Notes under the pieces: generated by a model
What the model saw: only the letters and a program-made list of their open reading frames with translations
The model's database searches: none
Told to the model about the DNA's origin: nothing
Shown: positions 42,319 through 47,681 of the stretch, one piece after another
Position numbering within the stretch: the stretch's first letter is position 1
Layout: every line of letters begins with the position of its first letter
From: Ancylobacter oerskovii
Lineage (GTDB): Bacteria > Pseudomonadota > Alphaproteobacteria > Rhizobiales > Xanthobacteraceae
Assembly: GCF_018390555.1 (NCBI RefSeq)
Contig: NZ_JAHBGB010000002.1
Span: forward strand, 186,001 to 250,000
Reading direction: 5' to 3'
Length of the DNA stretch: 64,000 nucleotides
Position numbers and translations under genes: made by a program

Positions 42319-42633
42319 GCGGCTCTCCCGGTTGGGGCGGCGAAAGGCGCCGCGCCCGGCGCGCACCATAGAGGAGCGGCCAAACAGCGCAATAATCTTT
42401 CGCGAGAAGCGGCGCAATCTTGCCTTGGGACAACTTTGGGATAAGCCATCAGCCGCTTGCAGAGCCGCGCACCAGCCCCTACATTTTCGCATGGCTGAAT
42501 TCAGTCGGCCGGCCCGCCTTTTGCTAGCAGCTTTTGGTTGCTTCCCCTCTTGCAAGCGGTGACGCCACCGGCCAGATGCAGCGGTGCTGAAGGAGCGGCC
42601 GGTGCCGCTTCACGAGATTTGCGAGTGCATTCC
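42319..42633. promoter_or_regulatory. Divergent region between Lrp gene and trxB
   Basis: About 315 bp without a supported gene. GCGCAAT occurs at 42387 and 42412 in the same orientation, 25 bp apart and both followed by ATCTT-like sequence. This could be an Lrp autoregulatory site. Nothing else convincing is seen. Confidence 0.3.
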
Positions 42634-43602
42634 ATGTCGCCGGCCCCCAACCACGTCAAGGTGGCGATCATCGGCTCCGGCCCCGCCGGCTATACCGCCG
42701 CCATCTACGCCGCGCGCGCCATGCTGGAACCGGTGCTGTTCCAGGGCATCCAGCCCGGCGGGCAGCTGACCATCACCACCGATGTCGAGAACTACCCCGG
42801 CTTCAAGGACCCGATCCAGGGTCCCTGGCTGATGGAGCAGATGCAGGCGCAGGCCGAGCACATGGGCACGCGCATCGTCAGCGACATCGTGACCAAGGCG
42901 GATTTCTCCTCCCGTCCCTTCCGGCTGGAAACCGATTCCGGGCAGGTGTGGATCGCGGAGACGGTGATCCTGTCCACCGGCGCGCAGGCCCGCTGGCTCG
43001 ACCTGCCGTCCGAGCAGGCCTATCGCGGCTTCGGCGTCTCCGCCTGCGCCACCTGCGACGGCTTCTTCTATCGCGGCAAGGACGTGTTCGTTATCGGCGG
43101 CGGCAATACCGCGGTCGAGGAAGCGCTGTTCCTCACCAATTTCGCCTCCAAGGTGACGGTGGTGCATCGCCGCGACCATTTCCGCGCCGAGCGCATCCTG
43201 CAGGACCGGCTGTTCGCCCATCCGAAGGTCGAGGTGGTGTGGAATTCCGTGCTTCACGAGGTGAAGGGCGAGAACGAGCCCACCAAGGTCACCGGCGTGA
43301 CGCTGAAGAACGTCGAGACCGGCGCTTTCTCCGAGCACAAGGCCGACGGCGTGTTCATCGCCATCGGCCATGCCCCGGCGACCGAACTGGTGGCCGGCCA
43401 GCTCAAGCTGAAGCCGAGCGGCTATGTGTGGACCGCCCCCGACTCCACCGCCACCTCGGTGGAAGGCGTCTTCGCCGCTGGCGATGTCGCCGATGACGTG
43501 TTCCGGCAGGCGGTGACCGCGGCCGGCATGGGCTGCATGGCCGCGCTCGAGGCCGAGCGCTTCCTCGCCGCCCGACATCCCCTCGCACAGGCGGCTGAAT
43601 GA
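42634..43602 (+). CDS. trxB: Thioredoxin-disulfide reductase
   Basis: A 322-residue flavoprotein that reduces thioredoxin with NADPH. FAD motif VAIIGSGPAGYTAAIYAAR, the redox-active C138-A-T-C141, NADPH motif VIGGGNTAVEEALFL and the C-terminal FAD motif GVFAAGDVADDVFRQAVTAAGMGCMAALEAERFL are all intact. The LysR-type gene begins 2 bp after its stop, a conserved rhizobial arrangement with lsrB. Confidence 0.97.
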   Translation: MSPAPNHVKVAIIGSGPAGYTAAIYAARAMLEPVLFQGIQPGGQLTITTDVENYPGFKDPIQGPWLMEQMQAQAEHMGTRIVSDIVTKADFSSRPFRLETDSGQVWIAETVILSTGAQARWLDLPSEQAYRGFGVSACATCDGFFYRGKDVFVIGGGNTAVEEALFLTNFASKVTVVHRRDHFRAERILQDRLFAHPKVEVVWNSVLHEVKGENEPTKVTGVTLKNVETGAFSEHKADGVFIAIGHAPATELVAGQLKLKPSGYVWTAPDSTATSVEGVFAAGDVADDVFRQAVTAAGMGCMAALEAERFLAARHPLAQAAE

Positions 43603-43603
43603 C

Positions 43604-44530
43604 ATGGAAGGGTCGGGCAAGGCGCGGGCACGCGACATGGACTGGGACAAGCTCAAGGTCTTTCACGTCGCGGCGGAGGCCGGGTCCTTCACCCATGCCG
43701 GCGAGGCGCTCGGGCTGTCGCAATCGGCGGTGAGCCGGCAGGTCTCGGCACTGGAGCAGGAACTGAACATCCCGCTGTTCCATCGCCATGCCCGCGGCCT
43801 GATCCTGACCGAGCAGGGCGACCTGCTCTACCGCACCGCGCACGAAGTGTTCATGAAGTTGGAGGCGGCGCGCGCCAAGCTGACCGACAGCCGCGAGAAG
43901 CCGAACGGCGAATTGCGCGTCACCACCACCATGGGCCTCGGCACCCACTGGCTCACCGCGCGGATCGGCGAGTTCCTCGAGCTCTATCCCGACATCCGCA
44001 TCACGCTGATCCTCACTGACGACGAGCTCGACCTCGCCATGCGCGAGGCCGACGTCGCCATCCGCCTGCGCCAGCCGGTGCAGCCGGACCTGATCCAGCG
44101 CAAGCTGTTCACCGTGCATTTCCATGCCTTCGCCTCGGCGGAATATCTGAAGCGCAACGGCCACCCGCGCACGCTGGACGAGATCGACAAGCACCGGATC
44201 ATCCTGCTCGGCGGCCCGATCCCCTCCTATTTCCAGCCGCTCAACTGGCTGGAGCGGGCGGGACTGGAAGACGGGCAGGAAGGGCGCGTCCCCTCGCTGT
44301 CGGTCAACAACGTGCTCGGTCTGAAGCGCGCGGTGGAGCGCGGCGTCGGCATCGGCATCGTGCCGGACTATCTGCTGGAAGACTCCGCGACGCTGGTGCA
44401 GCTGTTCCCCGAACGGCCCACGCCGACGCTGGAAGCCTATTTCGTCTATCCGCAGGAAATGCGCTCCGTGGCGCGCATCCAGGTCTTCCGCGACTTCCTG
44501 GTGGCCAAGGCGCAGCGCTGGAATTTCTGA
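43604..44530 (+). CDS. LysR-type regulator, LsrB/VtlR-like
   Basis: A 308-residue LysR-type regulator. The HTH region DWDKLKVFHVAAEAGSFTHAGEALGLSQSAVSRQVSALE and the effector domain (GELRVTTTMGLGTHWLTARIGEFLELYPDI) match the LsrB/VtlR/BabR group that controls AbcR sRNA and oxidative-stress genes in rhizobia and Brucella. Supporting context: trxB directly upstream and an AbcR-like sRNA just downstream. An alternative ATG 33 bp later is possible. The symbol is withheld because orthology is inferred. Confidence 0.85.
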   Translation: MEGSGKARARDMDWDKLKVFHVAAEAGSFTHAGEALGLSQSAVSRQVSALEQELNIPLFHRHARGLILTEQGDLLYRTAHEVFMKLEAARAKLTDSREKPNGELRVTTTMGLGTHWLTARIGEFLELYPDIRITLILTDDELDLAMREADVAIRLRQPVQPDLIQRKLFTVHFHAFASAEYLKRNGHPRTLDEIDKHRIILLGGPIPSYFQPLNWLERAGLEDGQEGRVPSLSVNNVLGLKRAVERGVGIGIVPDYLLEDSATLVQLFPERPTPTLEAYFVYPQEMRSVARIQVFRDFLVAKAQRWNF

Positions 44531-44724
44531 CCAAGCACAACCGCCCGTTTCTTGGGCAGTCCGCGCCGAGGCATCGAGGCGAGGACGGGGCTTGGGCCGA
44601 AGGACTTTCGGAAATCGGCACAAACTCGACCCGAATCGTTATAAAATTGTCATAGATCTACTAATGTACGACAGATCGTTGCCGGCCCTCGCAAAACGCA
44701 TGCCTGCCATGCGGGCATAATTCA

Positions 44725-44755
44725 TTGCCAAATGCCTCATCAACAGTCATATCTA
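44725..44755 (+). promoter_or_regulatory. Predicted promoter of the AbcR-like sRNA
   Basis: TTGCCA (44725-44730) and an AT-rich CATATCTA (44748-44755), 17-19 nt apart, place initiation near 44760, right before the first sRNA hairpin. The -10 spacing is approximate. Confidence 0.4.
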
Positions 44756-44760
44756 GTTTC

Positions 44761-44853
44761 GACGCTGTAGCACCGAGTGCTTCAGCTGTTCCCCTCTGGA
44801 AGGTCGCCGCTCTGCGGCGAAACTCGCCGGGCTCTTTCGAGCCCGGCTTTTTT
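44761..44853 (+). ncRNA. AbcR-like trans-acting small RNA
   Basis: Three stem-loops are seen. Stem 1: 44764-44773 with 44777-44786, ten positions with one mismatch. Next comes an unpaired TGTTCCCCTCTGG (44787-44799), an anti-Shine-Dalgarno segment like those of AbcR/alpha-r15 sRNAs. Stem 2: 44804-44810 with 44814-44820 (7 bp). Stem 3: a terminator (44826-44834 with 44839-44847) and six T. No ORF is here. Position next to an LsrB/VtlR-type gene matches its known target relationship. The 5' end is approximate. Confidence 0.78.
44826..44853 (+). terminator. Intrinsic terminator of the sRNA
   Basis: A 9-bp perfect stem GCCGGGCTC / GAGCCCGGC with a TTTC loop, followed by TTTTTT. Confidence 0.93.
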
Positions 44854-44898
44854 CTTTCCGAGTGTGCTGGCACGACCTCGATCGTCGCGTCGTGATCT

Positions 44899-46551
44899 TC
44901 AAACGCCGAGTATGTTCTCGACCATGCGGCCGGCGACCTCGCGCTCGGCATAGACCACGAGGTCCGCGCCACGGCCGCGCAGATGCTCCACCCCGTCCTC
45001 GCTATGGGCCCGGGCGGTGATGAACAGGTCGCGGCGCATGCGGCGGGCCGCCTCGATCAACGCCCCGCCCTGCAGTTCGTCCGGCACCGTGACCATCAGC
45101 AGGCGGGCGCCGGCAATGCCGGCATTCTGCAGCACCTCCGCCGGACTGCCGACCGCGACGATCCCCCGCCCTCCCCTCTGGCGCCAGCGCTCGATCTTCA
45201 GGCGGTCCTGGTCCACCACCACGAGCGGCACCTTCGCATCGGTGAGCTGGGCGGCGATCGCCGAGCCGACACGCCCCAGGCCGATGAGGATGACGGGTCC
45301 GTCGCCATGAGGCTGGTGCGGCCCGTAGACCTCCTCGTCCACCGGCTCCGCCGCCCCCTCCTCCCGGACGAAGCGCGCGGCCCAGCGTTGGGCAAGCTTG
45401 AACACGAAGGGGTTGAGAGCGATCGAGATCATCGCGCCGGCCACGATGAGGTCGCGCGCCTCGGTCGGCACCAATCCCTGCTCGATGCCGAGGCCGATGA
45501 GAATGAAGGAGAACTCGCCGATCTGCGCGAGGCTCGCCGCCACCGTCGCCGCCATGGCATGCGAGCGGCCGAGCAGACGCACCAGCCCCACCGCCGCCGC
45601 CGACTTGACCAGCAGGATGACCGTCAGCACCGCCGCGACGTCGAGCGGGCGCCGAAGCAGGATGCTCGGGTCGAACAGCATCCCCACCGAGACGAAGAAC
45701 AGCACCGCAAAGGCATCGCGCAGCGGCAGGGATCCCTCGGCGGCGCGATGGCTGAGATCGGATTCGCCGAGCACCAGCCCGGCGAAGAAGGCGCCAAGCG
45801 CGAAGGACACGCCGAACAGCAGCGCCGAGCCATAGGCGATGCCGAGCGCGACGCCGAGCACGGACAGCGTGAACAGCTCGCGCGAGCCGGTGCGGGCGAC
45901 CAGCGCCAGCATGGCCGGAATGACCCGCCGCCCCACCACCAGCATCAGCGCCACGAACAGCGCGACGGCACCGAGCGTGGTGCCGATCGACACGGCGAGG
46001 CTCGACATGTCGGCCTGCTGGCCGCGCGCGAGGCCGGCCAGCACCGGCAGCAGCACCAGCACCAGCACCATGGCGAGGTCTTCGACCACCAGCCAGCCGA
46101 TGGCGACGCGGCCCTTCTCGGTCTCCAGCGCGCGCTGCTCCTCCAGCGCGCGCAGCAGCACCACCGTCGAGGCGACCGACAGCGACAGGCCGAAGACGAG
46201 GCCCCCGGCGGCCGACCAGCCCCAGACCAGGGAAAGCCCGAGGCCGACAAGGGTGGCGACCGCGATCTGCGCCACCGCTCCCGGCACGGCGACGCTCCAG
46301 ACGCGCAGGAGGTCGCGCGGCGTGAAGTGCAGGCCGACGCCGAACATCAGCAGGATGACGCCGAGTTCCGCCAGTTGCGGGGCAAGCGAGGTGTCGGCGA
46401 CGAAGCCGGGCGTGTAGGGACCCACCATCAGCCCGGCGAACAGATAGCCGACGATGGGCGAGAGGCGCAGCCGCGTCGCGAGATAACCGAGGATCGCCGC
46501 CAGCACGAAGGCAAGACAGACGGTCGCGATCAACGGCACTTGATGCGGCAT
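44899..46551 (-). CDS. Kef/YbaL-type cation:proton antiporter with RCK domain
   Basis: A 550-residue CPA2-family protein. The first ~390 residues carry about twelve membrane helices (YLFAGLMVGPYTPGF, ELGVILLMFGVGLHFTPRDLL, FALGAFFAGLVLGESDLSHRA). The C-terminal cytoplasmic RCK/TrkA-N domain has the Rossmann motif VILIGLGRVGSAIAAQL. It probably exchanges K+ for H+ under NAD(H) control. ATG at 46551 has GGGAGG upstream. No KefF/KefG partner is nearby. Confidence 0.9.
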   Translation of the reverse strand: MPHQVPLIATVCLAFVLAAILGYLATRLRLSPIVGYLFAGLMVGPYTPGFVADTSLAPQLAELGVILLMFGVGLHFTPRDLLRVWSVAVPGAVAQIAVATLVGLGLSLVWGWSAAGGLVFGLSLSVASTVVLLRALEEQRALETEKGRVAIGWLVVEDLAMVLVLVLLPVLAGLARGQQADMSSLAVSIGTTLGAVALFVALMLVVGRRVIPAMLALVARTGSRELFTLSVLGVALGIAYGSALLFGVSFALGAFFAGLVLGESDLSHRAAEGSLPLRDAFAVLFFVSVGMLFDPSILLRRPLDVAAVLTVILLVKSAAAVGLVRLLGRSHAMAATVAASLAQIGEFSFILIGLGIEQGLVPTEARDLIVAGAMISIALNPFVFKLAQRWAARFVREEGAAEPVDEEVYGPHQPHGDGPVILIGLGRVGSAIAAQLTDAKVPLVVVDQDRLKIERWRQRGGRGIVAVGSPAEVLQNAGIAGARLLMVTVPDELQGGALIEAARRMRRDLFITARAHSEDGVEHLRGRGADLVVYAEREVAGRMVENILGV

Positions 46552-46694: not shown

Positions 46695-47681
46695 TCACAT
46701 GAACAGCTTCTCGGTCTTGTCCATGCCGGCATAGAGGCCGGCGACCTGCTCGCCATAGCCGTTATAGAGCAGGGTCGGGCGCCGCTCGCCGGTGCCGATG
46801 TCGCGCTCGCTGGCCTGGCTCCAGCGCGGATGCGGCACCTCCGGGTTCACATTGGCCCAGAAGCCGTATTCGCGGCCCTGTACCTGCTCCCACAGCCCGA
46901 CCGGCCGTTCGGCGACGAAGGAGATCCGCACGATCGACTTCACCGACTTGAAGCCGTATTTCCACGGCAGGGCGAGGCGCAGCGGCGCGCCATACTGGTT
47001 GGGCGCCGGCTTGCCGTAGACGCCGGTGACGAAGAAGGCGAGATCGTTCATCCCCTCGGCCATGGTGATGCCCTCGACATAGGGCCAGGGATAGATGAAG
47101 CGGTTCTGCGCCGGGGCGACCGCCGGGTTCACGAAGGTCTCCATGCGGATGTACTTCGCCCCCGACAGCGGCTTGGCGTAGTCGACGAAGGCCCGCACGG
47201 GGAACCCGGTCCACGGCACCGCCATCGACCAGGCCTCGACGCAGCGATGGCGATAGAGCCGCTCCTCCAGCGACATGGCGCGGATGATGTCGTCGATGCC
47301 GACCTCGCGCGGCGTCTCCACCAGCCCGTCGATCTTCACCGTCCAGGGCCGGCGCGGCATGCGCTCGGCGATGTCGGCGACCTGATAGTTGCGGCGGTCG
47401 GAGCCGAATTCGTAGAAATTGTTGTAGTTGCCGGAAATCTCCGCCGGAGTGACCGGCCGGTCGAGGGTGAAGGCCTCGTTCCGCTTCGCCGGGTAGAGAT
47501 CCTTGGTCGGATCGAGGTCGGGATTGCCCGGCGTGGGCGCCGCGGTCGCGGGAAGCCCAACTCCGGCAGCCGCCAGGAGGCCTGCCCCGGCGCCGAGAAG
47601 ATGGCGACGCGACAGATAGACGGCTTCGGGCGTGGCGGCGCTTTCCGGCAACTCCCATGGGCGGTGGCGGCGGATCAGCAT
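46695..47681 (-). CDS. msrP: Protein-methionine-sulfoxide reductase catalytic subunit MsrP
   Basis: A 328-residue molybdopterin enzyme that repairs oxidised methionines in periplasmic proteins. It has a twin-arginine signal (SRRHLLGAGAGLLAAAGVG) and the Mo-ligand Cys147 in YRHRCVEAWSMAVPW; NQYGAPLRLALPWKYGFKSVKSIVRI is typical of YedY. The usual membrane haem partner MsrQ is not adjacent on either side, so it must be elsewhere or replaced. Confidence 0.95.
   Translation of the reverse strand: MLIRRHRPWELPESAATPEAVYLSRRHLLGAGAGLLAAAGVGLPATAAPTPGNPDLDPTKDLYPAKRNEAFTLDRPVTPAEISGNYNNFYEFGSDRRNYQVADIAERMPRRPWTVKIDGLVETPREVGIDDIIRAMSLEERLYRHRCVEAWSMAVPWTGFPVRAFVDYAKPLSGAKYIRMETFVNPAVAPAQNRFIYPWPYVEGITMAEGMNDLAFFVTGVYGKPAPNQYGAPLRLALPWKYGFKSVKSIVRISFVAERPVGLWEQVQGREYGFWANVNPEVPHPRWSQASERDIGTGERRPTLLYNGYGEQVAGLYAGMDKTEKLFM

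Follow-up and report, generated by a model that had tools for sequence, protein, structure and literature searches.

A divergent AbcR-type small RNA with one anti-Shine-Dalgarno seed, predicted behind trxB-lsrB in Ancylobacter oerskovii

Behind a LysR-type regulator gene in the 5.48-Mb genome of Ancylobacter oerskovii lies a gap whose sequence raises two questions: whether it holds a small RNA (sRNA) gene of the AbcR (alpha-r15) family, and whether the regulatory circuit around such a gene has been simplified in this lineage. The window analysed here is a stretch of 64,000 nucleotides, and the coordinates of the locus refer to it. An initial annotation had placed an AbcR-like sRNA at 44725-44853, directly downstream of an LsrB/VtlR-type LysR gene and in an otherwise empty gap. 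The gap is indeed free of plausible genes: between the end of lysR (44530) and that of a YbaL-like gene (44899) the + strand has no open reading frame of 80 aa or more, and the - strand has one mechanical frame of 103 aa. The features of the locus are as follows.

42628-43602, + strand: trxB, thioredoxin reductase (TIGR01292, 404.6 bits, above cut-off; start codon approximate)
43604-44530, + strand: LsrB/VtlR-type LysR regulator gene, 308 aa, cysteine-free (9hh1 as best solved relative; cysteine scan)
44698-44717, no strand assigned: predicted LsrB operator, made up of the consensus GCAT-N3-TG-N3-T without mismatch (44698-44710) and, in overlap with it, the dyad TGCCTGC-N-ATGCGGGCA (44701-44717)
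44725-44730, + strand: predicted -35 element, TTGCCA (sequence reading)
44748-44753, + strand: predicted -10 element, CATATC, 17 nt past the -35 (sequence reading)
44759-44853, + strand: predicted AbcR-type sRNA (ar15 match at 44763-44851 and our own model R1)
44761-44790, + strand: stem-loop 1 (SL1), short form without the seed aSD1 (fold; pair counts in 30 relatives)
44786-44804, + strand: conserved core CTGTTCCCCTCTGGAAGGT, exact in 30 of 30 same-genus genomes
44789-44796, + strand: seed aSD2, UUCCCCUC, between SL1 and SL2, as defined in S. meliloti
44804-44820, + strand: stem-loop 2 (SL2) (fold; pair counts)
44826-44853, + strand: intrinsic terminator with T tract (terminator-like site 44826-44847, then TTTTTT)
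ending at 44899, - strand: YbaL-like antiporter gene

Near trxB-lsrB the window also contains, at 46695-47681 (-), a gene that by its translation reads as an MsrP/YedY-like molybdopterin sulfoxide reductase.

An RNA gene with its own operator

The three stem-loops and the terminator lie where the initial annotation had put them, and the fold is stronger than that of every one of 200 shuffled sequences, both for 44725-44853 (-50.8 kcal/mol, z -4.50) and for 44757-44860 (-50.9 kcal/mol, z -5.87). The first interval includes the promoter, as 44725 falls in the -35 region and the RNA itself would span about 44759-44853. The terminator-like site is the only one in 44500-44960, where 0.6 would be expected by chance. 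Across 22 aligned sequences (the window and 21 loci of the Ancylobacter group) the core and the upstream box are invariant, and this conservation takes the element beyond chance. The alignment A1 and the covariance model R1 were built from 30 short-form sequences, in which the five pairs counted in SL2 are formed in 100% of cells and two have changed on both sides. Helix 1 pairs in 66% of the alignment, probably through misaligned rows, and RNAalifold did not recover SL1 from a MAFFT alignment. When the structure is taken from the window's own fold, 25 cells have changed on both sides against 7.7 in shuffles, whereas further pair types show no excess (16 against 18.3). The anti-Shine-Dalgarno segment TTCCCCTCT, which had been described as unpaired, is found at its place and is mostly unpaired when the sequence is folded alone, but in the consensus fold of 30 relatives it sits in a small invariant UUCC/GGAA hairpin. 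An A/U-rich Hfq site was sought between SL2 and the terminator, where the spacer amounts to about AACTC; the genome does have an hfq gene.

The adjoining regulator is of the LsrB/VtlR type, as first proposed, by its full-length homology to 9hh1, the closest solved structure (E 1.6e-115), and by its place behind trxB. The entry code 9hh1 appears twice in the paper on A. tumefaciens LsrB (PMC11975290). Over the residues matched, the window protein and its A. sonchi counterpart are 100% identical. Among the best 80 of 420 related loci, 79 have trxB upstream of lysR; in the other one the contig begins just before lysR. The same order, trxB-vtlR-abcR1/abcR2, is given for A. tumefaciens in PMC7486931, and abcR1/2 stand beside lsrB in S. 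meliloti according to PMC3712013. Like other LsrB/VtlR genes, that of the window is followed by a cognate box before the sRNA.

This box fixes the predicted start. For S. meliloti AbcR1, PMC8844928 places the LsrB consensus GCAT-N3-TG-N3-T at -61 to -49, and the exact match at 44698-44710 occupies the same positions if +1 is 44759; the box at this spacing therefore predicts a start at 44759 and a promoter TTGCCA-N17-CATATC, the start being set by the spacing between box and start in S. meliloti together with the position of the -10 element. The pattern has six forward matches and no reverse match in the 64 kb, and only the one at 44698-44710 stands 80-125 nt before a + strand aSD2. All 21 loci of the Ancylobacter group (from the best 80 of 420) carry an exact box 86-91 nt before aSD2, and the TTG of the -35 and the CATA of the -10 are invariant in all 22 sequences. 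In short-form genera outside Ancylobacter the box mostly begins with ACAT, not GCAT. A scan for E. coli-type consensus promoters found none, and the predicted promoter is not E. coli-like.

The result of that scan, the absence of a detected terminator from lsrB to the element and the position of lsrB on the same strand would also fit an element that belongs to a trxB-lsrB transcript as its 3' end and terminator, perhaps processed, and is not a separate sRNA gene. Such an origin is very improbable, given that the box and the -10 keep a nearly fixed spacing while the distance from lsrB to the box varies between about 170 and about 1000 nt among Ancylobacter-group loci, that the gap can contain a gene on the opposite strand, and that S. 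meliloti AbcRs are independent transcription units (PMC3712013). On the strength of these sequence features, the sRNA gene is real, with a predicted transcript of about 44759-44853 (+) and a single copy behind trxB-lsrB.

The content of the gap between lsrB and the sRNA varies among relatives: one Ancylobacter locus has a DUF3280 gene there on the other strand (L004:3913-4422, -), and one Pseudolabrys locus a gene that reads as a permease with a His-rich tail (L024:3954-5009, +).

AbcR or mmgR

The family to which this RNA belongs is not settled by Rfam. Scanned at gathering level, the window gives a tRNA and no other match. The alpha-r15/AbcR covariance model, to which the initial annotation had looked for a check, does give a match at the locus (RF02345 ar15, 44763-44851, E 0.0025), and elsewhere in the genome it has none up to an E of 1, but the score of 27.8 bits falls short of the cut-off of 40. 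The suhB/mmgR model RF00519 reaches 34.9 bits at the same place, below its cut-off of 41, and is the listed sub-cut-off match in nine of nine relatives scanned (of 21; 25.7-37.8 bits), in a scan that hides overlapping lower-scoring matches of the same clan. With both models below cut-off, Rfam cannot decide the family. The ar15 model is narrow, since its gathering cut-off was reached in none of the 119 family genomes sampled; in the order it was reached in 17 of 297. Nor was any sRNA reported at gathering level for the 20 loci scanned out of the 59 from outside Ancylobacter. Our model R1 gives the locus 95.3 bits, with the window among the sequences from which R1 was built.

It might be argued from the higher RF00519 score, here and in the relatives scanned, that the element is a fourth copy of mmgR/suhB (alpha-r8), an sRNA associated with PHB storage and nitrogen, and not an AbcR at all; the occurrence of AGAGGGGA before a gene read as phaB-like (L231) and before a DUF3141 gene (L225) would point the same way. 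This is nonetheless a most unlikely identity. Every score at the locus and in its relatives lies below the RF00519 cut-off, and alpha-r15 RNAs have partial homology to RF00519 in any case, as stated in PMC7143759. The genome has three true mmgR genes on another contig (L082-L084, G000:C36:380820-383605, within 2.8 kb; 61-69 bits), all of which carry the mmgR core CTTGGGCGTTTCCTCCCTAGACTTGGG / GGGCGTTTCCTCCCTAGACTT and also TCCTCCC. The core CTTGGGCGTTTCCTCCCTAGACTTGGG is absent here, and a search of 44759-44853 for GGGCGTTTCCTCCCTAGACTT found none. The LsrB box, the lsrB synteny and the stretch GCTGTTCCCCTCTGGA, by contrast, match the canonical tandem ar15 copies. What the window RNA shares with mmgR/suhB is thus this partial homology together with the traits of a short trans-acting sRNA with an anti-Shine-Dalgarno motif and a terminator; the core and the locus are different.

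The canonical tandem copies come from four genomes of a family (f24) that we take to be Rhizobiaceae (L094-L097, two copies each). They have GCTGTTCCCCTCTGGAGGTT where the window has GCTGTTCCCCTCTGGAAGGT, they share a 16-nt stretch with the window sRNA, and GCTGTTCCCCTCTGGA is common to the window and all eight. Two seeds are described for S. meliloti in PMC8844928, aSD1 (CUCCUCCC) in the 5' loop and aSD2 between SL1 and SL2, the latter being part of an ultraconserved stretch. Measured against AbcR1 of S. meliloti and A. tumefaciens (RF02345), the window RNA is alike in its lsrB neighbour behind trxB, the spacing of the LsrB box, its three stem-loops, the place of aSD2, the terminator and its likely solute-binding-protein mRNA targets. 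It differs in that SL1 is shorter and lacks aSD1 in its loop, in its Rfam score below cut-off, in having no tandem AbcR2 and in an LsrB partner without cysteine; moreover, the distance from box to aSD2 is 86-91 nt in the Ancylobacter group against 109 nt in the canonical first copies of L094-L097.

An AbcR-like identity, as proposed at the outset, is supported by the synteny, the LsrB box at S. meliloti spacing, the exact aSD2 and the shared 16-nt stretch, and is further backed by target matches that were found blind to gene type. As the ar15 cut-off is unmet and aSD1 absent, the RNA would be a divergent orthologue and not a typical ar15 member; judged by its sequence it is a divergent AbcR orthologue rather than an mmgR RNA. 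By locus, operator, core and likely targets it is most likely AbcR1-like in its working and of the same gene ancestry. In open-licence papers we found no AbcR for Ancylobacter or Xanthobacteraceae, nor any AbcR without aSD1.

One seed, one copy and a regulator without cysteines

Loci were gathered by LysR similarity (the best 80 of 420), 21 from the Ancylobacter group and 59 from outside it. In 21 of the 21 Ancylobacter-group loci aSD2 is present and aSD1 is absent nearby, as it is in the window sRNA, where it is missing together with part of SL1. Outside the group, 46 of the 59 loci have an exact TTCCCCTC within 1400 nt past lysR, and in 41 of these an exact TCCTCCC lies about 30 nt upstream, the other five having TCCCCCC or ACCTCCC; the remaining 13 of the 59 have no exact core downstream, one of them offering 223 nt only. 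In 31 of the 46 there is an exact box before the core, 108-124 nt away in 30 cases. A core search in 296 family genomes gave a match in 108, and 40 places outside the genus were examined, one to four per genus. Twelve had the short form without aSD1 (genera g2, g7, g14 and g41), 25 had kept aSD1 (ten genera), and three were odd: g33 has no aSD1, g4 CTCCC only, and g42 TCCCCCT. The short form occurs in g19 as well.

In a quick tree of the LysR protein (65 chosen rows, from which core-less rows other than the unlabelled L090 were left out; SH-aLRT support only), 26 short-form rows group together as a single clade (SH-aLRT 98), and three changes suffice to explain how aSD1 is distributed, where shuffles require 21. 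As aSD1 is present in the f24 outgroup and in the remaining outgroup rows, loss is the simpler reading; most sisters keep the seed. Outside the short-form clade, aSD1 appears to have been lost in L272 (g33) and weakened in L273 (g4) independently.

Taken as a matter of copy number, the suggestion that a single visible copy betrays a simplified circuit does not hold. The gene is single: both ar15 and R1 give one real copy in the genome, and R1 finds one in each of 30 same-genus genomes, an extra match in one of them (G566, 24.6 bits) being an mRNA leader site. In the order, 45 of 297 genomes have an ar15 match at E <= 0.001, 34 of them a single one and 11 several; these counts are lower bounds, as the stricter filters of this survey lose weak matches, that of the window included. 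Ten of the 11 multiple-copy genomes belong to f24, and a single copy, the common state outside that family, was rejected as evidence of a simpler circuit. Simplification has come instead through the loss of aSD1. As for a second AbcR copy, none of the 19 additional matches to the core in the genus is an sRNA gene, and 18 of them are antisense leader sites. An expansion of mmgR as compensation for aSD1 was also considered and rejected: RF00519 matches, counting the weak one at the AbcR place, number 0 to 6 per genome in 119 family genomes, with no clear pattern.

The regulator presents a second peculiarity. In A. tumefaciens the LsrB cysteines are C144, C236, C244 and C273, and a C273S mutant is peroxide-sensitive, according to PMC11975290. 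In S. meliloti, LsrB regulation is described as requiring the oxidation of two cysteines, and the link from LsrB oxidation to AbcR1 transcription has been left open. The redox cysteines C144 and C273 are common to A. tumefaciens, S. meliloti and B. abortus. The window LsrB differs from that of A. tumefaciens in lacking all four, the corresponding residues being V151, V244, I252 and V281 in the alignment with 9hh1, and a cysteine scan of this protein and the 21 group members (from the best 80 of 420) found none in 22 of 22; in the other short-form genera none of nine LsrB proteins has a cysteine. A protein without cysteine cannot be a thiol switch, and the LsrB-sRNA module thus seems, from these sequences, to exist without one. 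The position of C236 is occupied by a cysteine in 54 of the 59 other loci (from the best 80 of 420), and some of these contain one or two further cysteines; the remaining five are cysteine-free. In four additional f24 loci the equivalent of C144 is the only one of the four to be present, and the three other families in which a LysR was found (f11, f14, f44) have no cysteine at any of these positions. Cysteine loss as a clade-specific trait was rejected, as LsrB proteins of other families examined also lack the redox cysteines. The C273 equivalent occurs only in L094-L097 among the loci examined and is therefore not required for LsrB kinship.

Candidate targets and the consequences for the clade

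The core was searched in the genus with up to two mismatches, which gave 30 self sites and 19 others, against one for the reversed pattern. Eighteen of the 19 are antisense to the sRNA and lie in leaders before solute-binding-protein genes of three gene families, one member of each having been scanned with Pfam and the rest assigned by likeness (as were L155 and L170, whose translations were examined in another reading frame). Twelve occupy the ribosome-binding site (RBS) of one family-3 amino-acid solute-binding protein gene, directly before its ATG, and one stands before an apparently broken copy of that gene (L281, G084:C2) with two successive complementary RBSs. Four, one of them in the A. 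oerskovii genome, belong to an NMT1-like solute-binding protein gene, in whose leader they precede the possible starts by at least 68 nt, and one stands before a DctP-type solute-binding protein gene; the 19th (L167, G481) has no convincing gene behind it. The A. oerskovii orthologue of the family-3 gene (G000:C44, 258 aa) has the leader CUUCCAAAGGGGAACAG-C-AUG, complementary at 16 of 17 positions, and its duplex with the sRNA reaches -40.1 kcal/mol against a shuffled mean of -19.1, with none of 200 shuffles as good; that of the NMT1-like leader reaches -36.9 kcal/mol, again with 0 of 200.

Ribosome-binding sites are purine-rich anyway. The aSD motifs, moreover, resemble the anti-Shine-Dalgarno sequence of 16S rRNA, so that any strong Shine-Dalgarno (SD) sequence will pair with them somewhat, and only one of 200 shuffles paired as well as the leader of L216, which comes from a solute-binding-protein paralogue and lacks AGAGGGG. 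One could thus accept an AbcR-type sRNA and yet regard the GAGGGG-type leaders as ordinary RBSs and not as targets, an objection that we consider unlikely to be right. The pairing extends past the SD (CUUCCAGAGGGGAACAG), the reversed core has its one site in the genus, and the canonical SD pattern gives one solute-binding protein in 28 distinct places. In the A. oerskovii genome AGAGGGGA-N4-12-ATG occurs at 12 places (reversed, 0), four of which precede solute-binding proteins, three by Pfam and L224 by weak similarity to polyamine-binding proteins. The canonical SD pattern occurs at 29 places, of which 28 are distinct (reversed control, 8), with one before a solute-binding protein; this set was read from translations, and only that place was scanned with Pfam. 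The difference, 4 of 12 against 1 of 28, is weak (Fisher p 0.022), and each set includes places that are not real starts. Several of the leaders pair little better than shuffles, 54 of 200 being as good for L226 and 17 of 200 for L224.

A AGAGGGGA RBS also stands before L231, a short-chain reductase read as phaB-like, and before L225 (DUF3141), and on sequence a link between the sRNA and storage-polymer metabolism is possible.

The reading that we prefer, and hold to be very probably correct, is that of a single one-seed AbcR (alpha-r15) orthologue, activated by LsrB, which represses solute-binding-protein mRNAs via aSD2. By analogy with S. meliloti and A. tumefaciens, LsrB would bind the box at 44698 and activate the sigma-70-type promoter, and an RNA of about 95 nt would be transcribed up to the terminator. 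Its core, that is aSD2 and its flanks, would pair with the leaders of periplasmic solute-binding-protein mRNAs, mostly at the RBS, and this pairing, probably with Hfq, would block translation, whereby uptake systems would be ranked or shut down. We infer both the dependence on Hfq and a signal sensed by LsrB.

For the clade as a whole, Ancylobacter and at least five other genera of the family, we give slightly better than even chances to the view that the AbcR network was rebuilt through a deletion in SL1 that removed aSD1, leaving one seed, one copy and a cysteine-free LsrB. The regulon would then be that of aSD2 alone, uncoupled from cysteine-based redox sensing, and the mRNAs that aSD1 controls elsewhere would have been released or passed to RNAs of the mmgR type with UCCUCCC. 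Mutation has been used to separate the two seeds in S. meliloti (PMC8844928). Here a natural loss of aSD1 coincides with a cysteine-free LsrB, and comparison across these genomes can test both the role of aSD1 and LsrB sensing without thiols; the clade is a useful natural experiment, not a new kind of system. That none of the 119 family genomes exceeds the ar15 cut-off suggests, further, that AbcRs go unnoticed by the ar15 model across a whole family of the order.
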